Source of the DNA: Shimia sp. R10_1
GTDB lineage: Bacteria; Pseudomonadota; Alphaproteobacteria; Rhodobacterales; Rhodobacteraceae
Assembly: GCF_017744095.1 (NCBI RefSeq)
Contig: NZ_JAGHQX010000002.1
Location: forward strand, 1 to 64,000
Direction: 5' to 3'
Length of the DNA: 64,000 nt
Below the pieces are notes generated by a model, which was not told the DNA's origin, searched no databases, and saw nothing but the letters and a program-made list of their open reading frames with translations. Within the stretch, counting starts at the first letter, position 1. Each line of letters begins with the position of its first letter. Of the stretch, positions 14,337-37,306 are shown piece by piece. The position numbers and the translations under genes are program-made.

Positions 14337-14370
14337 AAAAAAAGACCCCCACCAAAATGGCGGGGGTCCA
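14337..14370 (-). terminator. Intrinsic terminator of the rpsM-rpsK-rpoA-rplQ operon
   Basis: GACCCCC (14344-14350) pairs with GGGGGTC (14362-14368), with an inner CCA/TGG pair. Seven T residues follow on the minus strand (14337-14343). It lies 25 bp after rplQ. Confidence 0.93.
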
Positions 14371-14395
14371 GTCATTCGGTTGGTCCGAATGTGTA

Positions 14396-14815
14396 TTATT
14401 CTTCGGCGGCTTCTTCAGCTGCCACGCGAGCCTTGTCGGCCGCGCCTTTTGCATCAACGTCACGATCCACGAATTCGATGATCGCCATCGGCGCCATGTC
14501 ACCATAGCGGAAGCCGGCTTTCATGATGCGGATGTAACCACCTTTACGCTCTGCGTAGCGTGGGCCCAGAACGTCGAACAGTTTTGCAACATACTGATCT
14601 TCTTTCAGACGTGCAGCCGCCTGACGACGGGCGTGCAGGTCACCGCGCTTTGCAAGCGTGATCAGCTTTTCAACGATTGGACGCAGTTCTTTTGCCTTTG
14701 GCAGCGTGGTTTTGATCTGTTCGTGTTCGATCAAAGAACCCGCCATGTTGGCAAACAGAGCTTTACGGTGTTCGTGAGTACGGTTCAGGCGGCGATAGCC
14801 ACGAGCATGACGCAT
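14396..14815 (-). CDS. rplQ: 50S ribosomal protein L17
   Basis: Large-subunit protein near the exit tunnel. The 139-residue protein begins with the diagnostic [20 protein letters not shown]. The C-terminal tail is acidic and alanine-rich (AEEAAEE), a common alphaproteobacterial extension. GGAGAAAT precedes the ATG. It is the last gene of the alpha operon, 137 bp after rpoA, and is followed by a strong terminator. Confidence 0.97.
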
Positions 14816-14952
14816 TTTATTTCTCCTAATTCGCGTTTTGCTTTGTCAGACCAGTGATGCGTGTCACCGGTTCACCTTGGGGCCTTTGGCCCAGCTTTCC
14901 CCGGCAGGTCCGGGCATTTGTAAGACGGGCGGGGTCACCCCCGCCCAAAACC

Positions 14953-15969
14953 TTAGAAGTTGTCTTCGAACTTCTTGGCCAGATCTTCGATGTTGTCTGG
15001 TGGCCAGTCCTCGACGTCCATGCCGAGGTGCAGACCCATGCCGGACAGCACTTCTTTGATCTCGTTCAGAGACTTGCGGCCGAAGTTCGGTGTGCGCAGC
15101 ATCTCTGCTTCGGTTTTCTGGATCAGATCGCCGATGTAAACGATGTTGTCGTTCTTCAGGCAGTTTGCCGAACGTACAGACAGTTCCAGTTCGTCTACTT
15201 TCTTCAGCAGAAGTGGGTTGAACTCCAGACCATCATCTTCTTCCTGACGGCCCGCAGATTCTGGCTCGTCAAAGTTCACAAAGATGGACAGCTGATCCTG
15301 CAGAATGCGCGCGGCATAGGCCACAGCATCTTCTGGAGTGATCGAACCGTCGGTGTCGATCTTCATGGTCAGCTTGTCATAGTCCAGAACCTGACCTTCG
15401 CGGGTTGGCTGAACGTCATAGGACACTTTTTTGACCGGGGAGTAGATCGCATCGATCGGCATCAGGCCGATTGGTGCGTCTTCCGGCTTGTTTTTGTCCG
15501 CAGACACATAGCCTTTGCCAGTGTTCACAGTCAGTTCCACGTAAAGGTCTGCACCATCGTCGAGGTGGCAGATCACGTGGTCTTTGTTCAGAACTTCGAT
15601 GCCAGCGCTGTCGCTGATGTCGCCAGCCGTCACAACACCTGGGCCTTTTGCATTGATGGAAAGACGCTTAGGGCCTTCCACTTCCATGCGCAGGGACACG
15701 CCCTTCAGGTTCAGGATGATGTCGGTCACGTCTTCGCGCACACCGGCAACGCTGGAGAACTCATGCAGAACATTGTCGATCTGAACGCTGGTGATGGCCG
15801 CGCCTTGCAGGCTGCTCATCAGAACGCGACGCAGCGCGTTGCCCAGTGTCAGACCAAAACCACGCTCCAGCGGCTCTGCCACAACAGTGGCCTGGCGCGC
15901 AGGGTCGTTGCCCGGCTTCACTTCAAGCTGGGTTGGCTTGATCAATTCTGCCCAATTCTTGTGGATCAT
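14953..15969 (-). CDS. rpoA: DNA-directed RNA polymerase alpha subunit
   Basis: Alpha subunit of 338 residues. The N-terminal domain dimerises and nucleates the enzyme ([18 protein letters not shown]). An acidic linker (about 230-250) leads to the C-terminal domain that touches UP elements and activators ([14 protein letters not shown]). The ATG at 15969 is chosen over an upstream in-frame ATG because GGAGG lies 6 bp before it and [13 protein letters not shown] is the family start. It sits between rpsK and rplQ as in other proteobacteria. Confidence 0.98.
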
Positions 15970-16085
15970 GCGTCCCTCCATTCTTGTCTGGCTCCCATGT
16001 TCCAAGAAGAACCAGACGCCCGAGGTTTAAAAATGACGAAATGGGGCCGTGTAAAACACGCGGCCCCAAAGTAGTGAGATATCGC

Positions 16086-16475
16086 TTAAACGCGGCGACG
16101 CTTTGGAGGGCGGCAGCCGTTGTGTGCGATCGGGGTTACATCACGGATAGAGGTGATGTTGAAACCGATAGCGGCCAGCGCGCGCAGTGCGGATTCACGG
16201 CCAGAACCTGGACCCTGAACTTCCACTTCCAGCGTCTTAACGCCGTGCTCTTGCGCTTTTTTGCCTGCATCTTCCGCAGCCATCTGAGCAGCATAAGGCG
16301 TAGACTTACGGGAGCCCTTGAAGCCCATGGTGCCAGCAGAGGACCAGGAAATCGCGTTGCCCTGAACGTCAGAGATCAGGATCTTGGTGTTGTTGAAAGA
16401 GCTGTTTACGTGCGCAACGCCGGAGGCGATGTTCTTACGCTCTTTTTTCTTCGTACGAGTCTTATCGCGTGCCAT
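16086..16475 (-). CDS. rpsK: 30S ribosomal protein S11
   Basis: Platform protein of the small subunit that shapes the mRNA exit region. The 129-residue length and the C-terminal [18 protein letters not shown] are diagnostic. It follows rpsM by 15 bp and precedes rpoA, the usual alpha-operon order. Confidence 0.98.
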
Positions 16476-16490
16476 TGATCAAACCCTCCC

Positions 16491-16859
16491 TTACTTCTTC
16501 TTGCCGGCAATCGGCTTCGCAGGACCTTTGCGGGTACGTGCGTTGGTGTGGGTACGCTGACCGCGGACCGGGAGGTTACGACGGTGGCGCAGACCGCGGT
16601 AGCAGCCCAGGTCCATCAGACGCTTGATGTTCATCTGCACTTCACGACGCAGGTCACCTTCAACGGTGTAGGTCGCGTCGATGTGCTCGCGGATTGCCAG
16701 AACTTCTGCGTCAGACAGTTCGTTCACACGACGGGTCGCGTCGATGTTCACGGATTCGCAGATTTCTTTGGCGGATGCTGGACCAATGCCAGTGATATAA
16801 GTCAGGGCGATCGGGACCCGTTTGTGGGTCGGGATGTTAACGCCGGCGATACGTGCCAC
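16491..16859 (-). CDS. rpsM: 30S ribosomal protein S13
   Basis: Head protein of the small subunit that contacts tRNA and forms inter-subunit bridges. It has 122 residues, starts [15 protein letters not shown] and ends in the basic [17 protein letters not shown] tail. It is now the first gene of its operon because an ECF sigma factor locus separates it from adk. The 240-bp region upstream supplies its own promoter and leader. Confidence 0.98.
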
Positions 16860-16917
16860 GTGTCACTTTCCTTTTCGTTGCGGTTCCGTGGTTCCAGAAC
16901 CTTTTTTCACAACGTAA

Positions 16918-16941
16918 GCCCGACGCGGTCTGCGATCGGGC
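16918..16941 (-). promoter_or_regulatory. Hairpin in the rpsM leader
   Basis: GCCCGA (16918-16923) pairs with TCGGGC (16936-16941), and CGC (16924-16926) pairs inside with GCG (16932-16934). It would lie midway between the predicted start of transcription and the rpsM start codon. A role as an autoregulatory ribosomal-protein binding site is possible but unproven. Confidence 0.5.
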
Positions 16942-17017
16942 CTCAGCTGATCAGGTGATCTTGCGTATTGGGTGCGACCCAAAAGCAAAGAATTGATTCT
17001 CGGTTAAGAGATGAGGT

Positions 17018-17046
17018 GATGTAGGGGGGAAAGCGCAGGCCGTCAA
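17018..17046 (-). promoter_or_regulatory. Sigma-70-type promoter of the rpsM-rpoA operon
   Basis: TTGACG (17041-17046, minus strand), exactly 17 bp, then TACATC (17018-17023). It lies in the 244-bp gap between the anti-sigma gene and rpsM. The same TACATC -10 with the same spacer is found before rplB. It would give a leader of about 150 bases. Confidence 0.65.
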
Positions 17047-17103
17047 TAGGGGATCTGGCGAAAGACGCGGAGATCCGAACGTCCAGCTCTCAAAGCTTAG
17101 ATC

Positions 17104-17853
17104 CTAGATCTGCATTGACTGCAAGGCCTGCCCCAAACGGCGCACAAGACCATCCTCTGTGCCGCCAATCAAAACATAGTCATACGCGCCATCAGACCAG
17201 ACTGCGGAACTCAACCCTTCCAGTCGCATGGTGGCCAGTGCCTCCTCAGATACGGCCGCCTCTTCGCGGCGCATGATGCAGAGCGCCATCGGCACACCAC
17301 TGGGTGTTGCAAAGGCCAGCTGGATCAAAGGACGCCCCTGAAAACTCAGCACCTGCCCGCGTTTGTATTCCACGTCTGGCAAAGCGGTCAGTTGCGCCAA
17401 CTCTATGTCTTTGCCCACTGCCGCAGACACCCGCGCCAGCTCATTCTGCAACTGCTCTGGCGTCTGCTGAATATGATCCAATGTGGCATGGGTATAAAGC
17501 GCCTGATAAGCCGCCACATAGCCAACCCAGCCACTTCTTTCAGGCCCGGACGTCCAGTTCCCCAAGCCAAATCCGACAGCGAGAGCAACACAAGCCGCCA
17601 TAGCCACGGCGGCCATAGGACGTTTCGCTGGCGCCCTGCCCCTCACAGGCAATGCACCCAGCACATCTCGTGACGGCTGCAACAGCTCAAAACTCTCCTG
17701 CAGCGCGGTCACATCAAACCGCAATGCTTCGAGCCTCTTGGCCAATGCAGGATCTTCCTGGACCGCAGCCTCAATCTGAGCCATTGGTACGAGCTCAGTT
17801 TCACCATCGAGATAGGCCACGAGCTCCTCATCTGAGAAACGTCTATCTTGCAC
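17104..17853 (-). CDS. Probable membrane-anchored anti-sigma factor
   Basis: A 249-residue protein with an N-terminal cytoplasmic part of about 78 residues, one predicted transmembrane helix at about 80-97 (AAVAMAACVALAVGFGLG) and a periplasmic part of about 150 residues. The start FSDEELVAYLDGE is typical of anti-sigma factors. No HXXXCXXC zinc motif is seen. It starts with GTG at 17853, preceded by AGGGGA, and overlaps the ECF sigma gene by 11 bp. Its role as inhibitor of that sigma factor is inferred from architecture and overlap. Confidence 0.8.
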   Translation of the reverse strand: MQDRRFSDEELVAYLDGETELVPMAQIEAAVQEDPALAKRLEALRFDVTALQESFELLQPSRDVLGALPVRGRAPAKRPMAAVAMAACVALAVGFGLGNWTSGPERSGWVGYVAAYQALYTHATLDHIQQTPEQLQNELARVSAAVGKDIELAQLTALPDVEYKRGQVLSFQGRPLIQLAFATPSGVPMALCIMRREEAAVSEEALATMRLEGLSSAVWSDGAYDYVLIGGTEDGLVRRLGQALQSMQI

Positions 17854-18379
17854 GGCTCATTCCCCTCTGATCCCTGAATTTGCGCCCCAAACTGGCGCGT
17901 GCGGTGGCAAGGCGGCTCATCACTGTGGCCAGCGGAATATCAAGTATCTCCGCAGCGGCCTTATAAGAATAGCCCTCAACATACACCAGAACCACAGTCA
18001 CACGCTGTGCCTCCGGCAGATCCAGCACCGATTTCAAAACCTCTTGGCGATCATAGTCCCGCTCTGGATCTTGCTTAGGGTCTGGAATTTCAGCGGCATC
18101 CACCATTGGCATGCCGCCACCTTTACGTACTTTTTCTTTGCGGATCTCACTGATCCAAAGGTTGTGAGTGATCCGAAACATCCACCGGTCCAAGTGGGTG
18201 CCGGGCTGGAACTTGCTGGCCTGCTCTATCGCCCGCAAACAGGCAGCTTGCGCCAGATCATCAGCCCCATCTCTGGATCCTGTGAGCGAAAACGCATAGC
18301 GCCAAATGCGGGGGAAGACCTTTGGCAAGCCTGCTGCCACCTCTTCTTCTGCGCTATATTTTCTCCAACGGCCCAGCAT
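17843..18379 (-). CDS. ECF-type RNA polymerase sigma factor
   Basis: A 178-residue extracytoplasmic-function sigma factor. Region 2 includes GADDLAQAACLRAIEQ and region 4 includes GYSYKAAAEILDIPLATVMS, a helix-turn-helix for -35 recognition. The frame is open further upstream into the cytochrome gene, but the ATG at 18379 gives the usual length and lies 22 bp after that gene's stop. The ribosome binding site (GAGAG) is weak. It is co-directional with a YceI protein, a cytochrome c and an anti-sigma gene. ECF group and trigger are unknown. Confidence 0.9.
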   Translation of the reverse strand: MLGRWRKYSAEEEVAAGLPKVFPRIWRYAFSLTGSRDGADDLAQAACLRAIEQASKFQPGTHLDRWMFRITHNLWISEIRKEKVRKGGGMPMVDAAEIPDPKQDPERDYDRQEVLKSVLDLPEAQRVTVVLVYVEGYSYKAAAEILDIPLATVMSRLATARASLGRKFRDQRGMSRAR

Positions 18380-18401
18380 CAATCTCTCGCGCTCTGATCT
18401 C

Positions 18402-18776
18402 TCATTGATCTGCCAGTTCACTCTGCAAATAGGCCAAAAGGTCGTCAATCTGCTCAGGCTTTCTAAGACCCGCAAATGCCATTGTGGTTCCCGGCACCAG
18501 CGCTCTTGGCTTCGTCAGAAACTCTGTAAGCGTTGCCGCGTCCCAGACAATACCCGCCTGCTGCATCGGACCCGAATAGCGAAAGCCCTCCACAGACCCC
18601 GAGGTGGCGCCAAACACGCCATAGAGCGTCGGTCCAGCACGGTTGTCATCAGGCTTCAAGCTGTGACAGGACTGACATTTGCGAAAGACCTTTTTGCCAG
18701 CTTTCACATCCCCCTCTGAGGCTGCCGCCCCGGCCCATATCGTCAAAGCAACCGCTAAACACGTCAATTGGCGCAT
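18402..18776 (-). CDS. Class I c-type cytochrome
   Basis: A 124-residue periplasmic monohaem cytochrome. It has a signal peptide (MRQLTCLAVALTIWAGAAAS), a haem-binding CQSCH at residues 34-38 and a likely distal ligand Met99 in PGTTMAF. It resembles cytochrome c2/c550 electron carriers of alphaproteobacteria. AAGGAG precedes the ATG. It lies 56 bp after the YceI gene and just before the sigma factor, so it may be a target or sensor component of that regulon; this is inference. Confidence 0.9.
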   Translation of the reverse strand: MRQLTCLAVALTIWAGAAASEGDVKAGKKVFRKCQSCHSLKPDDNRAGPTLYGVFGATSGSVEGFRYSGPMQQAGIVWDAATLTEFLTKPRALVPGTTMAFAGLRKPEQIDDLLAYLQSELADQ

Positions 18777-18832
18777 CTTTATCTCCTTGCTTGATGCACG
18801 GGGCCAAGGCCCCGCACGTCTGGCTCGCGCCG

Positions 18833-19417
18833 TTACTTCTCAAAAATCATCCGCACAGTCACAGGCGTCACACGGGTGATCCCCTCAAGGCTCGCAAGCT
18901 CTTTCAACTTATCGACACCCGCATCAATACCCAGATCATAGGTGGACAGCATGATCATATCCGATGTTGTGACCAAAACACGGTCTTCGCTCAGCCGGGC
19001 AACAAACAATTCCGCCTCAACATCTGCGCTCACCCCGACGAGGCTCAGCGCGCCCTCAAACTCCACAACCGTGGTTGCACCGACTTCCAGATCGTGCACC
19101 GCATCAAAATCCACAGAACCAGTCAGCTCAGCCCGCGCGTCCGCCGCCTTAAAAATATGCGTGATCATGCGCTCATTGCGAATGTCGATGTTGGTTTCCA
19201 CAGAGCCAAGCTCGATAGATACCGCAACCTCACCTTTTTCGTTCACCGACCCAGACAGAGCAGCAAATGTATGAACTTCACCGAACTCATTGCTCTTGAT
19301 CGACCCAAACGCAATTTGGCTGTCTTCATCAACGGTTTTCCAAGTCTCATGCCCGCCGGCTATCGCGGGGCCAGCAAATGCCAAAACAAGTGCAGTGGTT
19401 TTCAACAGTGTCTTCAT
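18833..19417 (-). CDS. YceI family periplasmic protein
   Basis: A 194-residue secreted protein with a signal peptide (MKTLLKTTALVLAFAGPAIA) and the YceI lipocalin-like beta-barrel that binds isoprenoid lipids in characterised members. The N-terminal SQIAFGSIKSNEFGEVHTF is family-typical. The start at 19417 has GGAGG 6 bp upstream and begins the signal peptide. It is the first gene of the sigma/anti-sigma locus. The preceding terminator separates it from adk. Confidence 0.88.
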   Translation of the reverse strand: MKTLLKTTALVLAFAGPAIAGGHETWKTVDEDSQIAFGSIKSNEFGEVHTFAALSGSVNEKGEVAVSIELGSVETNIDIRNERMITHIFKAADARAELTGSVDFDAVHDLEVGATTVVEFEGALSLVGVSADVEAELFVARLSEDRVLVTTSDMIMLSTYDLGIDAGVDKLKELASLEGITRVTPVTVRMIFEK

Positions 19418-19504
19418 CGGTTCCTCCAAGCCAGGCAAAATCGCCCATTCAGAAGATCAACGCGCCAGCTGGCAAAACTATTCAGAAAAAAATTCATCAA
19501 AAAA

Positions 19505-19536
19505 CAAAAAAGCCCCCAGAAACCTGAGGGCTTTCT
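19505..19536 (-). terminator. Intrinsic terminator after adk
   Basis: On the minus strand AAAGCCC and GGGCTTT (19528-19534 and 19509-19515 on +) form a stem with an inner CTG/CAG pair, followed by TTTTGTTTT-type T-rich sequence. It closes the rplO-secY-adk unit and separates it from the inserted YceI gene. Confidence 0.88.
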
Positions 19537-19554
19537 AGAAAGTCTGTGTTTTGC

Positions 19555-20130
19555 TTACCCAAGCACGCCTGCAACAGAGGCTTCCACCTCATCCATCGAC
19601 GCAAGACCGTCGATAGAGGTGAGATTGCCCTTGGCATGGTAGTAGCCGATCAACGGTGACGTCTGTTTGTAATACGCCATCAAGCGCACTTTCAGACTTT
19701 CCTCATTGTCGTCTGCACGCGCTTCGCCGCCTGCAGCCACCGCTTCTTTTGCACGGTTGATGATGCGTTCAACAAGAACCTCATCGTTCACCTGCATCTC
19801 GATCACGGCATCCAGCTTTTCGCCGCAGTCTTCAAGCAAAGCCGCCAGAGCGTCTGCCTGCGCCAGCGTGCGTGGGAAGCCGTCAAAGATGAAGCCGCCC
19901 TTTTTGTCACCCTCGAGTTGTTCACGGATCAAGCCGATCACAATCTCATCCGTCACAAGCTCGCCACGGTCCATGACTTCTGCAACTTTTTTGCCCATCT
20001 CAGTGCCAGAGGTCTTTGCCGCACGCAGCATATCCCCTGTGGAGAGTTGGATCATGTCGCGGCTCTCAACGAGACGACTTGCTTGTGTCCCTTTCCCCGC
20101 ACCTGGCGGGCCAAGCAAAATAATGTTCAT
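19555..20130 (-). CDS. adk: Adenylate kinase
   Basis: Interconverts ATP plus AMP and two ADP. It has 191 residues with P-loop GPPGAGKGT at 7-15, the AMP-binding [14 protein letters not shown] segment and a short LID lacking the insert and zinc cysteines of the long form, as expected for many alphaproteobacteria. It overlaps secY by 4 bp (ATGA) and ends this operon, followed by a terminator. In the standard order rpsM would follow directly. Confidence 0.97.
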
Positions 20131-21491
20131 CGACGAGCAGCTCCCTTACGTGCGCCGCGCTTTTTGCCTTTACCGCGCAGCTGCGATTTTTCGATCAGCC
20201 CTTCATACTGATGGGCCAGCAGATGGTTCTGTACCTGTTGGATGGTGTCCATGGTCACTGACACAACAATAAGAACAGACGTTCCGCCAAAATAGAATGG
20301 GATCGCAAACTGGCCACGCAGAATCTCAGGAAGGAGACAAACTGCCGCAAGGTAGGCTGAGCCAAGCACCAGAATACGGTTCACCACATACTCAAGATAC
20401 TCTGCAGTACGCTTGCCTGGGCGAATACCCGGCACAAACCCGTTCTGGTTTTTCAGATTGTCAGCCACATCATCGGGCTTAAAGCTCACATTGAATGTGT
20501 AGAAATACGCAAAGAACACGATCATGGCGACAAAGAACAGCAGATACAGCGGCTGACCTGGGCCGAAGTAAGCAAGCAGTGTCGACATGATTGGGCCGGT
20601 CTGGCTGCCAGAGAAGGTCGAGATCGTCGTCGGCAACAGAAGCAGAGAGCTTGCAAAGATTGCCGGGATCACGCCTGCTGGGTTTACCTTGACTGGCAGG
20701 TGGCTGGAGCCACCGTCATAGACTTTCATGCCCACCTGACGGCGAGGGTATTGAATGTGGATCTTGCGCAGCGCACGCTCCATGAAGACCACGAAGGCAA
20801 TGGTTGCAATCACCATCACTATGACGCCCACAATCACAGCTTCGCTGATTGCGCCTGTACGGCCAGACACGAAGAACTGCGCCAGTGCGGCTGGGAGCTC
20901 GGCCACAATACCGACAAAGATGATCAAGGATATGCCGTTGCCGATACCGCGTGCGGTGATCTGCTCACCCAGCCACATCAGGAACATGGTGCCACCAACC
21001 AGTGTGATCAAGCAGCTGAAGCGGAAGAACATACCCGGATCGGTCACAAGATCCCCTGCCTCAAGGCTCACCGCAAGACCATAAGCCTGCAATGTGGCAA
21101 GGAACACCGTGCCGTAGCGGGTGTATTGGTTCATCTTTTTGCGGCCCTGCTCACCCTCTTTCTTGAGTTGCTCAAGCGCGGGCACCATCGAACCCAAGAG
21201 CTGGACGATGATCGAGGCCGAAATATAAGGCATGATGCCCAGAGCAAAGATCCCCATACGGCCCAATGCACCGCCGGTGAACATGGACAGGATACCACCA
21301 ATCCCTGCGCCTGCGCTCTCCATGAATTCACGAAGCGCCACACCATCAATGCCCGGAACCGGGATCCAGGTGCCAAGACGATACACAATCAACAATGCCA
21401 GAGTGAACAGGATGCGATTGCGCAGATCGGTCGCTTTGGTCAGCGCGGCCCAGCTTGTGTTGGCCGCCATTTGCTCTGCTGCAGATACCAT
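20127..21491 (-). CDS. secY: Preprotein translocase subunit SecY
   Basis: Channel-forming core of the Sec translocon in the inner membrane. It has 454 residues with ten predicted helices. The start ([20 protein letters not shown]), the plug-proximal helix 2b region, and the conserved C-terminal [12 protein letters not shown] tail are all family-typical. It follows rplO by 107 bp containing a hairpin, and overlaps adk by 4 bp. Confidence 0.98.
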
Positions 21492-21513
21492 TTAGGATCT
21501 CTCTTAGACTAGA

Positions 21514-21549
21514 AACGCCGCCAGAACCGTTTCCCGGTTTGGCGGCGTT
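21514..21549 (-). other. Stable hairpin between rplO and secY
   Basis: AACGCCGCCA and TGGCGGCGTT form the outer stem, with further pairing ACCG/CGGT inside and a TTTC-type loop. Only TTTCT follows on the minus strand, so readthrough into secY is expected. It may limit secY relative to rplO or be an RNase processing site. Confidence 0.7.
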
Positions 21550-21598
21550 GGAAAACTTGTCAGATTATGTAAGCGGGTCCGTCCCCGCTCACAACCTC

Positions 21599-22072
21599 TT
21601 ATTCAGCCGCTGGCGCGGTTTTGACAGTCAGAGAGCCACCTGCTTTTGCAACAGCGTCAACAGCTGCCTTGGAAGCGCCGGTCACTTCGATGTTCAGCTT
21701 GGCGGTGACTTCGCCTTTTGCCAGAACACGGATGCCGTCAAGCTTACGACGGACCAGACCGGATTCGATCAGCGCGTCTTCGGTAATCGCTGCGGATGCG
21801 TCCAGTTTCTTGGAGTCGACGAATTTCTGGATCAGGCCCAGGTTTACAACAGCAAATGCCTTGCGGTTTGGCTTGTTGAAGCCACGCTTAGGCAGACGCT
21901 GGTACAATGGCATCTGGCCACCTTCGTAGCCGTTGATCGCCACACCCGAACGGGATTTCTGACCTTTGATACCACGGCCACCCATTTTACCTTTACCGGA
22001 ACCGGGGCCACGGCCAACGCGCATGCGTTTCTTAGTTGCGCCAGGATTGTCGCGCAGTTCGTGCAGTTTCAT
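21599..22072 (-). CDS. rplO: 50S ribosomal protein L15
   Basis: Large-subunit assembly protein of 157 residues. It begins [20 protein letters not shown] and contains the glycine-rich [18 protein letters not shown] loop. The ATG at 22072 has AAGGAG 7 bp upstream; the longer frame is rejected because its extra 27 residues are not L15-like. In most bacteria rplO follows rpmD directly; here 1.8 kb of other genes intervene and rplO has its own promoter. Confidence 0.97.
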
Positions 22073-22140
22073 ATCGCTTCTCCTTGCCGGAACTGACCCA
22101 CGAAGCGTATCGGGCCAAACTCGGCTTTTCTTGATTTTGA

Positions 22141-22157
22141 TTCTGTGGCGCACAGAA
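22141..22157 (-). promoter_or_regulatory. Hairpin at the start of the rplO leader
   Basis: TTCTGTG (22141-22147) and CACAGAA (22151-22157) are perfect complements with a 3-base loop. The hairpin would begin only a few bases after the predicted transcription start and could protect the 5' end. Confidence 0.5.
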
Positions 22158-22169
22158 CGTCACCGGGCG

Positions 22170-22198
22170 CGTATAGACCCTTGATGCGCAGTTTGCAA
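22170..22198 (-). promoter_or_regulatory. Sigma-70-type promoter of rplO-secY-adk
   Basis: On the minus strand TTGCAA (22193-22198), 17 bp, then TATACG (22170-22175). It is the expected replacement promoter for the rplO unit after its separation from rpmD. Confidence 0.65.
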
Positions 22199-22351
22199 TG
22201 TCCAACCACATCATAGAAGTACATGCCCTGCCGCGGTTGTCACACGCGCCATTGTGGCGTGCCTGCGCTCCAAAGACGCATCTCAAAACCCTATCAATGG
22301 CGCCGCACTTCCAATAGCAACGGCCTGTCGAGATCTCAGGAGCGGCAGGAC

Positions 22352-22912: not shown

Positions 22913-22934
22913 ACGCTTCTAAACGCTTCAAACC

Positions 22935-22962: not shown

Positions 22963-22985
22963 TACGGTCGAATTCTCGTGCAGAC

Positions 22986-23393: not shown

Positions 23394-23416
23394 AGTCACA
23401 GGGAAGATACTTTAGA

Positions 23417-29226: not shown

Positions 29227-29232
29227 AACGCA

Positions 29233-29263
29233 AACGCCGCCCACAAGGGGCGGCGTTTTTTCT
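29233..29263. terminator. Terminator between the LysE and BCCT genes
   Basis: AACGCCGCCC (29233-29242) pairs perfectly with GGGCGGCGTT (29248-29257). Six T residues continue on the + strand, making it a strong terminator for the LysE gene. It may also serve the convergent BCCT gene. Confidence 0.92.
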
Positions 29264-29278
29264 TTTCTGTCGATCAGA

Positions 29279-30862
29279 TCAGCGACGGCGGCGTTCTCGC
29301 ACGAGGCCAATCATCACCGACACGCACATCAGCATCAGAACGATGGCAAACGGGAAGCCCGTTGCGATAGATGCCGCCTGCAGTGCGCCAAGTCCGCCTC
29401 CCAGAAGCAGCACAATCGCAATCGCGCCTTCCAGAATGCACCAGAACACCCGCTGTGCCGTTGGTGCGTCTGTCTTGCCCCCCGCAGTGATCGTGTCGAT
29501 CACAAGCGAGCCCGAGTCAGAAGATGTCACAAAGAACACAACCACCAGAACAATGCCGATAAACGACAGCAACCCGGTCATTGGGAAAGCTTCAAACATC
29601 TTGAACATCTTCAGCTCCAGCGCCGCATCAGAAAGCGCCTGCGCTGTACCGCTTGCAACTTGCTCCAAAGCCGCCACGCCAAAGACATTCATCCAAAGCG
29701 CGCCAACCAAAGTCGGAATGAAGATCACGCAGATGATGAATTCGCGAATGGTCCGACCCCGTGAAATCCGTGCAATGAACATCCCAACGAAAGGCGACCA
29801 GGAAATCCACCAAGCCCAATAGAAGGCCGTCCAACCCTGCATGAAGTTGGTATCCTCACGACCGACCCAGTTGGACAGGGCAGGCAACGCCACAGCATAG
29901 TCGACAAGCCCAGAGAAAAAGCCGGAGATAATCGCGGCAGTTGGACCCACGATGAGGACCAGTACCAACAAGACAGCCGCCAGGATCATATTGACCTCAG
30001 ACAGACGCTTAACGCCTTTGTCCAACCCTGCAATCACCGATACCAAAGCAAAGGCTGTGATGGCGATAATCAATAGCACGCTCATGCCATCGCTGATTGG
30101 CACATCAAAGAGGTAGTTCAATCCGGCCAGTGCTTGACTTGCCCCCAAACCCAGCGATGTCGCCAGACCAAAGATCGTTGCAAACACAGCAAGAATATCA
30201 ATGATGTGACCCAATGGCCCCCATGTCCGCTCCCCAAGAAGTGGGTAAAACACCGAGCGCATGGTCAGCGGCAGCCCACGGTTGAAGCTAAAGAACGCCA
30301 GCCCCAAAGCCACCACCGCGTAAACCGCCCATGGGTGCAGCCCCCAATGGAAAATGGTTGCGGCCATAGCAAGATCGCGGGCCGCGTCTACGTCGCCAGC
30401 CGCGGCACCAAGTGGCGCCCAGTCGGTACGCAAGCCGTTCTCTCCCACGGCTGTCCCCCCAAGGGACGAGCCATAGTGTGAAATCGGCTCCGCAACGCCC
30501 CAGAAGACCAGACCAATGCCCATACCAGCTGCGAACAGCATCGCAATCCAGCCCCCGTAACTATAATCCGGTTTGGCGTCCTCTCCACCAAGGCGAATCT
30601 TGCCATAAGGCGACACGACCAAGAACAAAGAGAACACAACAAACATGTTGCAAGCGATCATGAAGACCCAGTCGAAATTGCTGGTCAACGTCGGGCGCAG
30701 CCAACCGAAAAATGCGGACGCTTGTTCATGAAACACCAAGGAAAAAAAGACGAAAGCAACGATCGTCAATCCTGAAACTGCAAACACAGGATTGTGTACG
30801 TCCAACCCCATTATCTGCACATTGTCCTGACCAACCTCGTAGTCGGTTTCTTGTTCTGACAT
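29279..30862 (-). CDS. BCCT family transporter (betaine/carnitine/choline type)
   Basis: A 527-residue secondary transporter with about twelve helices. It carries the BCCT signature in TAFYWAWWISWSPFVGMFIA, whose tryptophans line the quaternary-ammonium site, and an early GIGLVFWGVAEPISHY segment. Likely substrates are glycine betaine, choline or similar osmolytes, also including DMSP in marine relatives. The ATG at 30862 has GGGGAG upstream; the longer frame adds 33 residues with no family match. It belongs to the insert between rplP and rpmC. Confidence 0.93.
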   Translation of the reverse strand: MSEQETDYEVGQDNVQIMGLDVHNPVFAVSGLTIVAFVFFSLVFHEQASAFFGWLRPTLTSNFDWVFMIACNMFVVFSLFLVVSPYGKIRLGGEDAKPDYSYGGWIAMLFAAGMGIGLVFWGVAEPISHYGSSLGGTAVGENGLRTDWAPLGAAAGDVDAARDLAMAATIFHWGLHPWAVYAVVALGLAFFSFNRGLPLTMRSVFYPLLGERTWGPLGHIIDILAVFATIFGLATSLGLGASQALAGLNYLFDVPISDGMSVLLIIAITAFALVSVIAGLDKGVKRLSEVNMILAAVLLVLVLIVGPTAAIISGFFSGLVDYAVALPALSNWVGREDTNFMQGWTAFYWAWWISWSPFVGMFIARISRGRTIREFIICVIFIPTLVGALWMNVFGVAALEQVASGTAQALSDAALELKMFKMFEAFPMTGLLSFIGIVLVVVFFVTSSDSGSLVIDTITAGGKTDAPTAQRVFWCILEGAIAIVLLLGGGLGALQAASIATGFPFAIVLMLMCVSVMIGLVRERRRR

Positions 30863-31248
30863 AAAACTCCCCTTTTTGGATGTCACTGCCCAGAGACTCC
30901 GCACACACAGCAAAACAAACCCTTGAAAACCGACCATTCGACAGGATGAATCGGCGCACATGCCTGAAACATGCGGCCGGTTCTTCGGCTCTCACACACG
31001 CAGTGCAGGGTTATGGGTCTCACCGGAATGCAATCGGGCGCGCTTGTTACACAGATGATGCCGATGCGCCAGCGGAGTCTGCGCGTGGCATCATATGGCT
31101 CTGTGCGCGCAAATACCCTGGTGCCTTTCACCTCAAACAGTTCGAGGCGAAAGGCGATATCGCGAAAGACCGACGATCCACTGCCGCGATACAGCTGCAA
31201 TACCGACATATTACCGACGCAATACCGCAGCCCTTTCTCGGATGAGCG
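30863..31248. other. Gene-free region between the oxygenase and BCCT genes
   Basis: This 386-bp stretch has no convincing gene. A + strand frame at 30971-31264 has no recognisable domain and no good ribosome binding site, and its end overlaps the oxygenase gene. The stretch contains the second 11-bp repeat array (31188-31231). It must also hold the promoter of the BCCT gene, but I could not pick one out with confidence. Confidence 0.5.
31188..31231. repeat. Tandem 11-bp repeat array, four units
   Basis: Four abutting 11-mers occupy 44 bp: GATACAGCTGC, AATACCGACAT, ATTACCGACGC and AATACCGCAGC. They share the unit of the array at 153-185; the first 22 bases here match units 2 and 3 of that array at all but four positions. 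The array lies 17 bp beyond the oxygenase stop and about 330 bp upstream of the BCCT start. Confidence 0.7.
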
Positions 31249-31869
31249 TCATTCCCAAATGTAGTTGAAGCTCACGCTAACCCGTTCTTCTTCCGACATA
31301 TTCATCGGCACTTCATGGCGCAGCCAGCTTTCCCAAAGAAGCACATCCCCCACATCAGGCTTCACATAAATAAAAGGTCGCAACTCCCGCCGCGCCTCTT
31401 TTTCGCGCACGGGGGCCGCCATCATGCGACCTGACCTTGGATCTTCCAACTTCAGCGCGCTCGCGCCTTCTGGCATGGACACATAGGTCGTGCCGCTGAT
31501 GACTGAGTGGGGATGGATATGAGACGCATGCATTCCGCCCTCTGGCAGAATGTTTATCCAGATATCTTCTAGCTTAAGAGCCCGGCCATCCAAATTAAAT
31601 TCCAAGTCTTTTGCAAAGGCCGCAACGTGCTGATCAAGCGCTTCAACCACATCCGCAAATATTGGAAACCGCCAAGGCAAATCAGTAAGCGAAGCGTAAG
31701 ACGTATAACCGGGGTAGGCATTGGCTTCACACCAGTCTTGTCCCGCTTCATCATCTTCAGCGATAGAAAAACAAGAGCTCTCCAACTCATCCGTGTCTAT
31801 TGGCTTCCCAAACTCTGCGAGACGCGCGCGGTAAAGCCGCGTCACAAACAAAGATTCAATTGTAGACAT
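31249..31869 (-). CDS. Putative 2OG-Fe(II) oxygenase family protein (TIGR02466-like)
   Basis: A 206-residue protein. A metal-binding HIHPHS at residues 117-122 and a distal histidine in WLRHEVPMN, followed by RVSVSFNYIW, match the jelly-roll Fe(II)/2-oxoglutarate oxygenases of the TIGR02466 type. The substrate is unknown. The start at 31869 has AAGGAAAGAG upstream. It is divergent from the chemoreceptor gene across 146 bp. Many family members occur in marine bacteria and phages. Confidence 0.8.
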   Translation of the reverse strand: MSTIESLFVTRLYRARLAEFGKPIDTDELESSCFSIAEDDEAGQDWCEANAYPGYTSYASLTDLPWRFPIFADVVEALDQHVAAFAKDLEFNLDGRALKLEDIWINILPEGGMHASHIHPHSVISGTTYVSMPEGASALKLEDPRSGRMMAAPVREKEARRELRPFIYVKPDVGDVLLWESWLRHEVPMNMSEEERVSVSFNYIWE

Positions 31870-32015
31870 ATTCTCTTTCCTTCTCTGAGTGCACAACCCG
31901 CTGGTTTGATTGCACTATCTGAGGCAGCGCGTTGTGGGCTCGCGCTTGGGTACCTTCTGTTAACCAGACATGCCTAATTCTCGCATGGAAACACAAACAA
32001 GTAGGCCGCGAACCA

Positions 32016-34175
32016 ATGAAACCTAAAATAACGATCACCGCTGCTATCATTTCGATCATCGTGCTCGCATTGGGCGTTATGGGTGGGCTTGGTGCCACCT
32101 CTTACTACTCTCACATCATGCGCGACAAGATGCAGAGCGACTTGGAAGACATTGAAGAGCTCAATATCGCCACTGCCAATCTTCAAGTCGAATTTCTAAT
32201 GGCAAGGCGCTCCGAAAAAGATCTGCTCCTGCGTGAAGCTGAGAAATATATAGACCGCCACGCGCAAACGATGTTTGCGCTGAAGTCTGACTTCGAGATG
32301 ATCGAGCAGATTGTGCCTGAAATCCCGGAAATGGCGGAGTTTGCCACCCTTGTTCCTCTGCTTGGCAATGCGATCTCTGCGTATGAACAGTCTTTCCTTG
32401 AAATGGTCAGCTTGAAGCAGAAGCTCGGATTGAGTGAAAAAGAAGGCATTCGCAAAACGCTCGCAGATGCAATTGCGGCAGTAGAGGCAGAGGTTGCTGG
32501 CGTATCTATCCCAATTTTGCATGCAAAACTGCTTACGATTCAATTGCATGCGCAGCGGTTTAGACTGGAACCGGACGCCGCTGAACTGGCTACAATCAAA
32601 CAGCTCATCCAAGAGTTCAAAGGATTCCCGGAGTTTTTCTATGACGATCCAGCCGTCATTCCGGACCTACACGAGAAACTTGATATCTATCTGACAAGCT
32701 TCACAGAATACGTGAACACGCGCTTGATGGAATCTGAAAAACGTCTCGAAATGTCCGCTCGCTTCGCCGACGCCGAGCCCGTTATGGCGCAATTCAAAGC
32801 TGCGGCACACAATGAACTCACCAAAAAGCTGGCCGAGAGTGAGCGCATTAGCGCCTTGGCCCAGCAGGTGACACAATTGGCAGGCATTATCGGCTCTATT
32901 GTCTTTGTACTTTTCGCAGTTTTCCTGGCGCGTGCAATCTCTCGCCCACTTAAAAAAACCGATGCAGTACTGAAGAAAATGATGGAAGGGGACTTCACCG
33001 CTGAACCTCCAAGGTCATTCATCCGAGAAATCGGTGCGATCGCAAAAGCCGTCACCAATTTCCAAAATGAAGAACGGATCAAACATGACATCACACAGCA
33101 GATGTCTCGTGTGATTGACGCCTGCGCAGAAGGTGATTTTTCCGACCGTATTGATATTGGCGACGCTACGGGCACATTTGCGGAACTCGGCAGAGGCGTC
33201 AACGCAATTGGCGAAGTAGCGGAGAACGGCCTGGGCGATGTAAAAGACGCGCTGGAAATCCTGTCGACGGGCGATCTGACCCATGAGATGCCTCAAGGTC
33301 AGAAAGGCGTGTTCAAGGACATTTCTGAGACGCTCTCCCATCTCACATCAAGCTTGGATGGCATGGTTCGCCAGCTGTCCTCTTCTTCCAACGTCCTGAA
33401 TCGAACTTCCAAGGAGATCTCTCACTCCGTTGATGATGCATCTCGCCGTGGTGAAATTTCAGCCGCGTCTTTGGAAGAGACGTCTTCGTCACTGCAAACC
33501 GTTGCAGAAACCGTCAACAGCACAGCACAAAGCGCTCAAGAAGCGCGTAACCATGTAAACAATGCTCAGAAGAAGGCAGAGGCCACTCGGTCCGTTGCAG
33601 ATCAAACTGTGGAAGCCATTCAACGTATCAAAGAAAGCTCTGACGCGATTTCACAAATCTCGGGGCTGATTGAAGACGTGGCCTTCCAAACCAACTTGCT
33701 GGCGCTTAACGCCGGTGTGGAAGCAGCCCGTGCAGGAGATGCAGGACGTGGCTTTGCAGTGGTGGCTTCTGAGGTGCGCGCCTTGGCACAACGGTCATCT
33801 GAAGCGGCCCATGAGATCAACACCCTGATTTCCAGCTCTCAAAGCGAGGTTGTTAACGGCGTAGACCTAATGGATGATACAGGGAAATCGCTTGGTGAAA
33901 TCCTTCAAGCTGTCGAACAGGTGGTTGGTAAGGTCAATGAGATTGCAGAGAACGCGGTTGATCAGTCCACAGGACTCGCCGAGGTAAACGCTGCCGTCGA
34001 AAACTTGGACCGTGACAGCCAAAAGAGCGCGGCCATGCTTGAGGAAACGGCGGCCTCTGGTCAAGTGTTGCTCGGTGAAGCTGAGAACTTGGTGAGAGCA
34101 GTGTCCGGGTTCAAGCTAAAAACAGAAACACTTGCGGATGAAGACACACTCGACGCGGAATGGGACGCGGCCTAA
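32016..34175 (+). CDS. Methyl-accepting chemotaxis protein
   Basis: A 719-residue chemoreceptor. A first membrane helix at about 5-25 is followed by a long periplasmic helical sensor region to about 280, a second helix (IIGSIVFVLFAVFLARAI), a HAMP domain, a second HAMP-like segment, and the signalling domain with FQTNLLALNAGVEAARAGDA as the hairpin tip that binds CheA/CheW. The C terminus EWDAA is not a classic CheR-binding pentapeptide. The ATG at 32016 begins the first helix; its ribosome binding site is weak. No other chemotaxis genes are nearby. Confidence 0.94.
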   Translation: MKPKITITAAIISIIVLALGVMGGLGATSYYSHIMRDKMQSDLEDIEELNIATANLQVEFLMARRSEKDLLLREAEKYIDRHAQTMFALKSDFEMIEQIVPEIPEMAEFATLVPLLGNAISAYEQSFLEMVSLKQKLGLSEKEGIRKTLADAIAAVEAEVAGVSIPILHAKLLTIQLHAQRFRLEPDAAELATIKQLIQEFKGFPEFFYDDPAVIPDLHEKLDIYLTSFTEYVNTRLMESEKRLEMSARFADAEPVMAQFKAAAHNELTKKLAESERISALAQQVTQLAGIIGSIVFVLFAVFLARAISRPLKKTDAVLKKMMEGDFTAEPPRSFIREIGAIAKAVTNFQNEERIKHDITQQMSRVIDACAEGDFSDRIDIGDATGTFAELGRGVNAIGEVAENGLGDVKDALEILSTGDLTHEMPQGQKGVFKDISETLSHLTSSLDGMVRQLSSSSNVLNRTSKEISHSVDDASRRGEISAASLEETSSSLQTVAETVNSTAQSAQEARNHVNNAQKKAEATRSVADQTVEAIQRIKESSDAISQISGLIEDVAFQTNLLALNAGVEAARAGDAGRGFAVVASEVRALAQRSSEAAHEINTLISSSQSEVVNGVDLMDDTGKSLGEILQAVEQVVGKVNEIAENAVDQSTGLAEVNAAVENLDRDSQKSAAMLEETAASGQVLLGEAENLVRAVSGFKLKTETLADEDTLDAEWDAA

Positions 34176-34177
34176 AA

Positions 34178-34217
34178 AGCGCGCTGCAGGGTGGCCATAA
34201 CGGCCGCGTTGCGCGCT
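34178..34217 (+). other. Palindrome directly after the chemoreceptor stop
   Basis: AGCGCGC (34178-34184) and GCGCGCT (34211-34217) are perfect complements, enclosing a GGCC/GGCC pair. It precedes the real terminator at 34263 by about 45 bp and may stabilise the mRNA end. Confidence 0.55.
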
Positions 34218-34262
34218 CTCCGTTTGCTTCGCCGCCCCTAGCTCCAAGACGACTTACTGAAC

Positions 34263-34292
34263 AAAGCCCTGCGCACTGCGCGGGGCTTTTTT
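34263..34292 (+). terminator. Terminator of the chemoreceptor gene
   Basis: AAAGCCC (34263-34269) pairs with GGGCTTT (34283-34289), with further GCGC pairing inside, and T residues follow. Confidence 0.85.
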
Positions 34293-34375
34293 GATGGTGC
34301 AGAGTAAGATTGCTGAAATTTGGAGACCGTTTTTGAAGTCTCTGTGGGGCTCGCAATCGAAAACGAAACCGCACA

Positions 34376-34410
34376 AAAAGAAACCCCCCGCTGTTTCCAG
34401 CGAGGGGTCA
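34376..34410 (-). terminator. Terminator after rplP
   Basis: On the minus strand a stem formed by CCCCTCGCTG-type and CAGCGGGGGG-type arms around a short loop is followed by TTTCTTTTTG. It ends the rplB-rplP unit, where rpmC would normally continue. Confidence 0.85.
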
Positions 34411-34447
34411 ATTTAGTGAAGGAGGTGAGCGTCAGCTCACCAATCTC

Positions 34448-34861
34448 TTACCAGTCTTCGCGAACGACAACGCGGGTTTTGACAGGAAGTTTCATCGCTG
34501 CGAGGCGCAGAGCCTCACGTGCGATGTCTTCGTCAACACCGTCGATTTCGAACATCACGCGGCCCGGCTTCACTTTGCAGGCCCAATAGTCCACGGAACC
34601 TTTACCTTTACCCATACGGACTTCGGTTGGTTTCGAGGTCACTGGGGTGTCTGGGAAGATACGGATCCAAACACGGCCCTGACGTTTCATGTGACGGGTC
34701 ATTGCACGACGTGCTGCCTCGATTTGGCGAGCTGTCACGCGTTCCGGTGTGGTTGCCTTCAGGCCGAAAGAGCCGAAGTTCAGGGTGGAGCCACCCTTGG
34801 CTTCGCCTTTGATGCGGCCTTTGTGCATCTTGCGGAATTTAGTACGCTTTGGTTGAAGCAT
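34448..34861 (-). CDS. rplP: 50S ribosomal protein L16
   Basis: A 137-residue protein of the A-site/peptidyl-transferase region. It starts [19 protein letters not shown] and contains [20 protein letters not shown]. It lies 13 bp after rpsC. It is the last gene of its unit and is followed by a terminator instead of rpmC. Confidence 0.98.
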
Positions 34862-34874
34862 TGATCAGTCTCCC

Positions 34875-35582
34875 TTAGCGACGACCACCGGCACCACGTG
34901 GTGCAGGGCCATCCTGGACTTCTTGTGCACGGCGGTCACGCGCCTGTGGATCATGCTCCATGATCTCGCCTTTGAAGATCCAGGTTTTGATACCAATGAT
35001 CCCGTAAGCGGTGGTCGCTTCCACATGTGCGTAATCGATGTCAGCACGCAGGGTGTGCAGAGGCACACGGCCTTCGCGGTACCATTCGGTACGTGCGATT
35101 TCGGCACCACCCAGACGACCTGCGACGTTCACCCGGATACCCAGGGCGCCCATGCGCATTGCGTTCTGAACGGCACGCTTCATCGCGCGACGGAAAGACA
35201 CACGGCGTTCCAGCTGCTGAGCGATGGACTCGCCAACCAGCTGAGCGTCGAGTTCCGGCTTGCGCACTTCAACGATGTTGAGGTGCAGCTCGGAGTCAGT
35301 CATCGTTGCGATCTTCTTACGAAGGGTCTCGATGTCTGCGCCTTTTTTACCGATGATCACGCCAGGACGTGCGGTGTGAACGGTCACGCGGCACTTCTTG
35401 TGCGGACGCTCGATGATCACACGTGCAACACCAGCTTGCTTGCACTCTTTTTTGATGAACTCACGGATCTTAATGTCTTCCAGAAGAAGATCACCGTAGT
35501 CCTTGGTGTCAGCATACCAGCGGCTGTCCCAGGTGCGGTTCACCTGAAGGCGCATGCCAATCGGATTGACTTTGTTACCCAT
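34875..35582 (-). CDS. rpsC: 30S ribosomal protein S3
   Basis: A 235-residue protein at the mRNA entry channel with a KH domain ([18 protein letters not shown]) and a C-terminal domain. The C-terminal tail is basic and glycine-rich. The rplV stop and its ATG overlap by one base (TAATG). Confidence 0.98.
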
Positions 35583-35962
35583 TAGGCTTGCTCCTCAACT
35601 TGACGCACCTTGATGGTGAGCTCAGAGAACGGCTTGATGATCTTGCCGAAACGACCACGGGCGCGCGGACGACCGCGTTTCATGGTCAGGTTCTTGCCCA
35701 CATAGGCTTCGGCAACGATCAGGCTGTCGACGTCCAGGTTGTGGTTGTTTTCGGCGTTGGCAATTGCGGACTGAAGGCATTTCTTCACGTCTGCTGCAAT
35801 CCGCTTGTTGGAGAAAGTCAGGTCGGTCAGAGCCTTCTCAACTTTCTTGCCGCGGATCATGCCGGCTACCAGGTTCAGTTTCTGCGGGCTGGTGCGAAGC
35901 ATGCGAGTTTTCGCCATTGCTTCGTTTTCAGCCACGCGGCGGGGGTTCTTTGCCTTGCCCAT
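35582..35962 (-). CDS. rplV: 50S ribosomal protein L22
   Basis: A 126-residue exit-tunnel protein. It contains [20 protein letters not shown] and the tunnel-loop region [15 protein letters not shown], where macrolide-resistance changes occur in other species. It lies 3 bp after rpsS. Confidence 0.98.
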
Positions 35963-35965
35963 GAC

Positions 35966-36244
35966 TTACTTCCGTTTCGCTTTTTTGTCGGCCGCGTGCC
36001 CGTAGTAGGTACGGGTAGGCGAATATTCACCGAATTTCTGACCGATCATGTCTTCGGTTACCAGCACAGGAACGTGCTTTTTGCCGTTGTACACACCAAA
36101 GGTCAAACCCACGAACTGGGGCAGGATGGTGGAACGACGGGACCAAATCTTGATCACTTCATTACGACCGGATTCGCGAACTGCTTCGGCTTTTTTAAGC
36201 ACGTAAGCATCCACAAAAGGGCCTTTCCATACAGAGCGAGACAT
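35966..36244 (-). CDS. rpsS: 30S ribosomal protein S19
   Basis: A 92-residue head protein starting [18 protein letters not shown] and containing [17 protein letters not shown] near the C terminus. It lies 3 bp after rplB. Confidence 0.98.
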
Positions 36245-36247
36245 CTA

Positions 36248-37090
36248 TTAACGCCCCTTCTTCTTGGCGTGACGCGAGCGGATGATAAGCTTTTGCGACG
36301 CTTTGTTTTTGTTGCGGGTACGCGCACCCTTGGTCGGCTTACCCCATGGTGTCACTGGGTGACGACCACCGGAGGTACGACCTTCACCACCACCGTGAGG
36401 GTGATCGATCGGGTTCATCACCACACCACGAACGCTCGGACGCTTGCCTTTGTGGCGCATACGGCCGGCTTTACCGAAGTTCTGGTTAGAGTTGTCAGGG
36501 TTAGACACGGCACCAACGGTGGCCATGCATTCCTGACGTACGAGGCGCAGTTCGCCCGAGGACAGGCGGATCTGAGCGTAACCACCGTCACGACCAACAA
36601 ACTGAGCGTAGGTACCAGCTGCACGGGCGATCTGGCCGCCTTTGCCTGGTTTCAGTTCGATGTTGTGAACGATCGTACCGATCGGCATGCCCGAGAACGG
36701 CATTGCGTTGCCCGGCTTGATGTCGGCCTTTGCAGACGCGATCACCTGATCGCCAACTGCCAGACGCTGAGGCGCGAGGATATATGCCTGCTCGCCGTCG
36801 TCATATTTGACCAATGCGATGAATGCGGTCCGGTTCGGGTCGTATTCGATCCGCTCAACGGTTGCCGCTACATCAAATTTGTTCCGTTTGAAGTCAACGA
36901 TCCGGTAAAGGCGTTTCGCCCCACCACCACGACGACGCGAGGTGATCCGTCCGGTGTTGTTCCGGCCGCCCGATTTTGTCAGACCCTCAGTGAGGGCTTT
37001 GACAGGACGTCCTTTCCAAAGCTCCGAACGGTCGATCAGCACCAGCCCACGCTGGCCCGGCGTCGTCGGCTTGTACGACTTGAGTGCCAT
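36248..37090 (-). CDS. rplB: 50S ribosomal protein L2
   Basis: A 280-residue protein needed for subunit association and peptidyl transfer. It contains the essential [18 protein letters not shown] motif with the conserved histidine. It is the first gene of its unit. In the standard S10 operon rplW precedes it; here rsmD lies upstream, and rplW, rplD, rplC and rpsJ are not in the window. Confidence 0.98.
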
Positions 37091-37277
37091 GCTTTCTGTC
37101 TTCCGTATAGCGCGCCAGACCTTAGGTTCTTGTCTTTGGTCCAGCTATGTTAAAGCCCCCCGCCCGAAAGTTTCATCAGAAACCCCTACTAGGGTGGCCA
37201 AGTTTATAGGGCCCCGAAGGTCCCCGGTTCAAAAACGGTGCAGCCCCAGAACGAATCTGAGGCCACACGACTGGCGC
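37091..37277 (-). promoter_or_regulatory. Long leader of the rplB operon
   Basis: About 180 bases separate the predicted transcription start from rplB. A small hairpin at 37209-37224 closes a C(TTCG)G tetraloop, with GGG/CCC outer pairs and one internal mismatch. No leader peptide is evident. A ribosomal-protein feedback site is possible but not shown. Confidence 0.4.
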
Positions 37278-37306
37278 GATGTAACAGGGATCGGAAAGGC
37301 TGTCTA
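37278..37306 (-). promoter_or_regulatory. Sigma-70-type promoter of the rplB-rplP operon
   Basis: On the minus strand TAGACA (37301-37306), 17 bp, then TACATC (37278-37283). The -10 and spacer length equal those of the rpsM promoter at 17018-17046. Confidence 0.65.

Follow-up and report, generated by a model that had tools for sequence, protein, structure and literature searches.

Fixed borders divide the S10-spc-alpha ribosomal protein cluster of Rhodobacteraceae into units with candidate promoters and leaders of their own

Our analysis of a 64,000-nt stretch of DNA from Shimia sp. R10_1 (contig NZ_JAGHQX010000002.1, positions 1 to 64,000; hereafter, the window) points to an S10-spc-alpha ribosomal protein cluster that has probably been split into units with separate promoters, the cuts always falling at the same places, and each unit carries its own RNA leader and keeps its own feedback. 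This cluster is among the most conserved gene clusters of bacteria, the textbook reason being operon-wide feedback, and it was reportedly the subject of a 2005 study by Coenye and Vandamme. To judge by the genomes compared, the split layout is a trait of the Rhodobacteraceae and not a feature of this strain alone. In the mainly open-access literature that we surveyed, we met no fitting account, for this group, of the cluster split or of leaders before rpmC, rplO, and rpsM.

Four units on the minus strand of the window carry the S10-spc-alpha genes, with the usual order kept both within and across units: rplB-rpsS-rplV-rpsC-rplP (unit 1, 34448..37090), rpmC-rpsQ-rplN-rplX-rplE-rpsN-rpsH-rplF-rplR-rpsE-rpmD (unit 2, 23850..28162), rplO-secY-adk (unit 3, 19555..22072), and rpsM-rpsK-rpoA-rplQ (unit 4, 14396..16859). 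Units 1, 2, and 4 were delimited by open reading frames (ORFs) and tblastn, which for unit 1 was run against relatives, and unit 3 by Pfam as well. The three lines of evidence agree on the gene order that the initial annotation had read on this strand. Its statement that unrelated genes occupy each break is likewise borne out by Pfam and by the junction sizes: rplP/rpmC, rpmD/rplO, and adk/rpsM measure 6267, 1777, and 2695 nt, respectively, and the remaining 19 junctions of the window measure -8 to 137 nt. The names adk, rpsH, rplP, and rpsQ are based on Pfam, and the remaining ribosomal gene names are presumed from gene order. The rpmC start at 28162 was set by eye from the Shine-Dalgarno sequence; there is also an in-frame ATG at 28180, which is the one used for the gap size. 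Since the front of the S10 part lies elsewhere, with rplW on a different contig (L150, G000:C35) next to putative rplD and rplC ORFs, the cluster is in at least five pieces. On that contig, the gene adjoining the end of rplW is unrelated and on the opposite strand. By rplE, an uncultured Shimia sp. (92%) is the nearest named relative among the matches listed.

The same borders recur across the family. For 80 named loci, mostly Rhodobacteraceae by title and ranking best among at least 593, we took rplE together with up to 10 kb of flanking DNA and measured the junctions; each junction was measured in 34 to 80 of them, the one or few loci per junction that failed on strand, coverage, or order being dropped. 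Only 3 of the 22 junctions ever exceed 300 nt in these loci, namely, rplP/rpmC (50/60), rpmD/rplO (46/55), and adk/rpsM (17/44), and these are the three that are long in the window; the other 19 do so in no locus (n of 34 to 80). In 15 loci from outgroups of the same class, rplP/rpmC spans -16 to 36 nt (14 measured) and rpmD/rplO -1 to 93 nt, and adk/rpsM is tight in 13 of the 15 (60 to 333 nt), with exceptions of 793 and 1051 nt. In a Pfam search of 115 class genomes, 103 L16-S17 pairs came from outside the family; 101 of them lie within 450 nt, and the two loose pairs are 632 and 46,665 nt apart. The distance from rplW to rplB is 6 to 35 nt in 14 outgroups versus 96 to 3158 nt in 46 family loci, and rplW was not found in the DNA fetched around 13 further family loci. 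In a Ruegeria locus (L023), rplO and secY are inverted and lie about 12 kb before rpmD, as if unit 3 had been relocated as a whole.

All four units end in hairpins that fold strongly, in keeping with the terminators that the initial annotation had placed at 34376, 23793, 19505, and 14337. On the minus strand, these predicted terminators lie after rplP (34382..34409), rpmD (23793..23828), adk (19507..19536), and rplQ (14343..14369), with folding energies of -23.9, -24.1, -19.5, and -23.3 kcal/mol, z scores of -4.6 to -5.7, and no equal among 200 shuffles. Relatives have terminator-like hairpins after the same genes in 49 of 60, 56 of 75, 9 of 48 (named relatives), and 26 of 30 cases, respectively, and shuffled sequences yielded them in 1/180, 4/225, 3/144, and 1/90 cases; within the genus, the hairpin after adk is present in 13 of 22 loci. 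Terminator-like hairpins also occur after rpsK (14/44) and rplO (6/54) in the named loci, and 0 to 3 times after the remaining genes; class outgroups have them after rplP in 0/14 loci and after rpmD in 1/15. From these hairpins, we predict that the first two units end at conserved intrinsic terminators.

Frequent read-through could nevertheless keep the units co-transcribed, with the internal promoters playing a minor part. Small gaps would permit this, and 39 of the 48 named relatives have no terminator-like hairpin at adk/rpsM. In the window, however, gaps 1 and 2 (rplP/rpmC and rpmD/rplO) contain genes on the opposite strand, strong predicted terminators follow rplP, rpmD, and adk, and units separated by 1.8 to 6.3 kb are unlikely to share a transcript. 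We regard this account of the units as very doubtful. Separately set transcription, as the initial annotation proposed, is consistent with promoter boxes and terminators that are conserved at fixed borders, but some read-through may occur, chiefly at adk/rpsM.

The candidate promoters assigned to each unit by the initial annotation found support in family alignments, in which a -35/-10 pair stands out upstream of all four units in otherwise variable DNA. On the minus strand, these boxes are TAGACA-17-TACATC before rplB (37278..37306), the weakest of the four; TTGCCA-17-TATAGA before rpmC (28281..28309); TTGCAA-17-TATACG before rplO (22170..22198); and TTGACG-17-TACATC before rpsM (17018..17046). 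The spacer is 17 nt in all 52 ungapped rows of the 56-row rplB alignment, in 77 of 77 rpmC rows, and in all ungapped rows for rplO (54 of 56) and rpsM (45 of 47). The -35 box starts with TTG in nearly all rpmC, rplO, and rpsM rows, and the second base is T in just 23 of 52 rplB rows. Not one of the 228 ungapped rows over the four unit promoters has T at the last -10 base. A simple sigma-70 consensus scan placed none of its promoter predictions at a unit start because it demands this T; it was dropped in favor of the family alignments, its matches being about as frequent as in shuffles (6 versus 9.7 and 12 versus 9.6). Promoters of one common class might coordinate the expression of the separate units.

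Each unit furthermore begins with a conserved structured leader. Before rplB lies a match to the L2-Alphaproteobacteria ribosomal leader RF03142 (37093..37225, minus strand), which scores 45 bits against a gathering score of 37.8. The family also reaches its gathering score in five of seven other loci, the exceptions being L081 and the outgroup L115, and across the 115 class genomes it matches only two, both of the window's genus. For rpmC, rplO, and rpsM, no Rfam 15 family reached its gathering score in the window and six family loci; here, we found three hairpins supported by covariation. Their folding was scored with RNAalifold against column shuffles (at most 40 rows) before any structure was chosen, giving z scores of -8.1 for rpmC, -5.7 for rpsM, and -3.7 for rplO.

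The rpsM leader hairpin (16877..16913, minus strand) lies within the match of our covariance model R1 (16854-16935; 89.5 bits, itself a row in the model). This hairpin has 12 pairs, which are 100% paired in 45 rows, and GUUGUGAAAAAAGG is invariant in 45/45; cells in which both sides of a pair have changed number 15 versus 3.2 in shuffles and are spread over two pairs. In the rplO leader hairpin (22086..22125, minus strand; within the R3 match 22067-22173; 90.3 bits, likewise a row in the model), pairing is 98% in 55 rows, and 59 such cells versus 17.6 in shuffles fall on five pairs. The rpmC leader hairpin (28182..28228, minus strand; model R2, 25.4 bits in the window, E value of 0.006) is 96% paired in 23 selected rows, with 33 cells versus 9.7 in shuffles on seven pairs. 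For all three leaders, not one shuffle out of 500, nor any slid version, reached the percentage paired, the number of cells changed on both sides, or the covariation score.

The rpmC hairpin calls for some care. The first alignment of its leader (A1) was misaligned, and RNAalifold gave no pairs on it; the hairpin borders come from a complementarity search, two short sequence motifs (passed by 72 of 79 rows), and single-sequence folds. As the 23 well-formed hairpins that seeded R2 were picked by eye, and the nonseed loci had also been inspected beforehand, the covariation in the resulting alignment (A4) leans toward the chosen structure; the support that is free of seed choice is the RNAalifold z score already given. 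Of 81 nonseed family sources, 77 have an R2 match to the leader, and the four that it misses contain no rpmC. Two sources (L002 and L134) are apparently one record, so that not all are independent. Outside the window, 75 of 76 matches end 19 to 26 nt upstream of the start codon, the other (L077) ending at 68 nt. No match at an E value of 1 or below occurs in the 15 outgroups.

R1 and R3 match the window and every genus locus in which the gene is present (23 and 22, respectively) but no outgroup, with a few additional matches elsewhere in genus loci at E values of 0.02 to 0.8. Counted irrespective of gene context, R1 matches 86 and R3 83 of 100 family genomes, once each, and both match two of the 115 class genomes, the two being of the window's genus. 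A single weak R1 match in another class genome (G053) lies in an unrelated gene and not before rpsM, and was set aside. All three hairpins appear to be found in Rhodobacteraceae and absent from the other families sampled, the whole-genome test being uninformative for R2. At rpsM, the Alpha_RBS family RF00140 scores 29.5 bits, below its gathering score of 38, and mostly over the conserved rpsM start; we did not take this match as an S4 leader. As a weak lead, the rpsM leader may mimic the S4 site of 16S rRNA; the 16S gene was not found in this assembly by a search that was positive in just 9 of 14 control genomes.

A different view of the leaders is that they are general hairpins for translation or mRNA stability and not binding sites for ribosomal proteins. 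The rplR-rpsE, rplO-secY, rpsK-rpoA, and rpoA-rplQ spacers are structured too, so that structured spacers are common here. Against this, each leader has a fold of its own beside the start, with invariant bases, which would seem to go beyond the needs of a stability hairpin, and at rplB the leader belongs to a family that has already been curated as ribosomal. We consider general hairpins unlikely, if well within reason, and prefer leaders that bind ribosomal proteins. Because all four units have a conserved structured leader, one of them curated, control of the cluster looks redistributed rather than lost. The loss of operon-wide coupling that the initial annotation thought possible is therefore borne out only insofar as one long transcript is unlikely; a loss of control is unsupported, since each unit has its own leader. 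Most likely, as read from these conserved sequence features, promoter and posttranscriptional control are separate for every unit.

The structured spacers inside the units deserve mention in their own right. The rplO-secY spacer (21492-21598, minus strand) forms two stable hairpins, with a family RNAalifold z score of -13.3 and single-spacer z scores below -3 in 44 of 54 loci; these hairpins may set the expression of the nonribosomal secY relative to rplO. In the rpsK-rpoA spacer (about 16042-16068, minus strand), a GC-rich hairpin is followed by a U-rich stretch, which is terminator-like in the 14 of 44 relatives counted above and may be a partial terminator before rpoA. The rplR-rpsE (24619-24735, minus strand) and rpoA-rplQ (14816-14952) spacers are also structured, with family medians of 113 and 135 nt; in class outgroups, the medians are 11 nt (15 loci) and 18 nt (6 loci).

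According to Pfam, gap 1 (28181..34447) contains genes for a chemotaxis receptor of the MCP type (plus strand), a 2OG-Fe(II) oxygenase (minus), a BCCT transporter (minus), and a LysE exporter (plus); gap 2 (22073..23849) contains two DUF1127 genes (minus) and a histidine phosphatase gene (plus); and gap 3 (16860..19554, minus strand) contains genes for a YceI-like protein, a cytochrome c, and an ECF sigma factor, along with an overlapping gene without a Pfam match, which from its position probably encodes the anti-sigma factor. The low ends of the three gaps hold the promoter and leader of rpmC, rplO, and rpsM, respectively. The most widely kept insert of gap 1 is the 2OG-Fe(II) oxygenase gene (42/60 named loci and 13/13 genus loci with both ends present), and no window insert is present in all relatives. 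This gene lies after rplP at 31249-31896 and might conceivably have to do with the hydroxylation of ribosomal proteins. The DUF1127 genes form a tandem pair (22986-23632) with a terminator-like hairpin after each, and relatives of the two are found in gap 2 of 12/22 and 10/22 genus genomes. Across 23 genomes of the genus, the adk/rpsM gap ranges from 201 to 4407 nt; the set of YceI, cytochrome, and ECF genes occurs there in 1 of the 23 and in none of 44 named loci. The ECF sigma factor gene and its overlapping partner (17104-18475) lie directly before the rpsM promoter, an arrangement that only L132 shares among the 23. From one species to the next, the inserts change and the borders persist, and much of the insert content is recent.

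Could the breaks be an artifact of assembly? The genome is in 39 contigs; however, the window lies inside a contig of 520 kb, and other genomes of the genus have the same borders. Misassembly is further made unlikely by L132, of the same genus, whose 2699-nt adk/rpsM insert contains the same four genes. An intact cluster in close relatives, together with evidence of misassembly here, was one of the findings that the initial annotation had named as speaking against its idea; relatives share the borders, and L132 shares this insert. The chance of an artifact is negligible.

It is harder to tell which came first, the split or the inserts. Foreign genes may have landed in an intact operon, with promoters, terminators, and leaders arising later as a rescue. 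Fitch parsimony, applied to a tree of ribosomal proteins, is ambiguous for rplP/rpmC but gives a family ancestor in which rpmD/rplO and adk/rpsM were already enlarged, and the first-branching locus (L066) has gaps of 4666 and 3782 nt. On the other hand, 8 of 10 rplP/rpmC gaps of up to 300 nt already have a terminator, almost every aligned row shows the promoter boxes regardless of gap size, and even the most widely kept insert is missing from some relatives. The terminators in compact rplP/rpmC gaps suggest that the split came first and insertion later; the same cannot be said of rpmD/rplO, where just 3 of 9 compact gaps have one. We consider insertion into an intact operon improbable, though it remains a serious contender. 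The family comparison that the initial annotation had called for shows the borders to be family-wide.

Considering these data, we propose a model for the cluster in which separate units retain their own feedback. S10-spc-alpha is divided into rplB-rplP, rpmC-rpmD, rplO-secY-adk, and rpsM-rplQ, and rplC-rplD-rplW lie elsewhere. Transcription of every unit would start from a conserved promoter whose last -10 base is not T, and these promoters, if of the CarD class, would be transcribed in step. Each leader would allow a ribosomal protein of its own unit to repress translation, providing feedback per unit. Unrelated genes would gather at the borders, differing from species to species, because insertion there breaks no transcript. 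Beyond this, the Rhodobacteraceae may have replaced feedback over a few operons by a distributed form, with a promoter of a shared class and a dedicated leader per unit, and with three undescribed leader families that are confined to the family and arose with the break-up. We put forward this wider proposal tentatively, as something just short of an even bet; in it, the rplB leader is already known, and those of rpmC, rplO, and rpsM are new.

Several results weigh against the preferred reading of separate units with their own leaders and feedback. The parsimony result and the scarcity of terminators in compact rpmD/rplO gaps, described above, are among them. The terminator at adk/rpsM is sporadic (10/40 gaps of up to 500 nt and 13/27 longer gaps), and this scarcity makes read-through into rpsM likely in many relatives. 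With respect to the leaders, the number of pairs changed on both sides was reached by 21/500 shuffles for rpmC, 82/500 for rpsM, and 29/500 for rplO; for rplO, it was also equalled by one slid version, and the further pair types of rpsM were reached by 192/500 shuffles. The rplB leader, which was cut short in the alignment, gave an RNAalifold z score of only -1.6. R2 is a weak model, with its low score in the window, true sites at E values of up to 0.8, and one off-target match (L017), and its whole-genome scan returned nothing, even in this genome, which makes that scan uninformative on other families. Finally, R1 misses 14 and R3 17 of the 100 family genomes, including 12 and 14 of the 91 most complete.

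A cut cluster with a leader per unit offers a natural test of whether selection keeps feedback rather than co-transcription, and it does so in an abundant marine family. Being compact and strongly conserved, the three leaders lend themselves to binding and reporter assays. The borders, fixed as they are, look like harmless entry sites for foreign genes in an essential region.

Compared with known systems, the locus has the conserved gene order of the S10-spc-alpha cluster without its contiguity. The typical cluster is contiguous, and class outgroups keep rplW-rplB, rpmC next to rplP, and rplO next to rpmD tight in the 14, 14, and 15 loci measured; here, the cluster is cut at the three window sites and between rplW and rplB, with gaps of 1.8 to 6.3 kb, terminators, opposite-strand genes in gaps 1 and 2, and rplW elsewhere. 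All four unit promoters share the lack of T at -7 with CarD-class promoters of Rhodobacter sphaeroides. In PMC10232725, R. sphaeroides promoters are described as often lacking this T, and CarD as activating such promoters in vitro. Since T at -7 is present in less than half of the promoters of R. sphaeroides, the trait is not specific. RF00140, the S4 leader of Gammaproteobacteria, also precedes rpsM, and unit 4 here is without rpsD. The rpmC, rplO, and rpsM leaders have the covarying conserved RNA structure before ribosomal protein genes that characterizes ribosomal leaders, with the weaker measures noted above. For the L2 motif of Alphaproteobacteria, which we take to be RF03142 (a name that the text of the paper does not use), Eckert and Weinberg (2020; PMC7247131) give a rating of "?" and a ligand assigned only by the closest gene; the regulated genes that they list, rplB, rpsS, rplV, and rpsC, agree with the content of unit 1.

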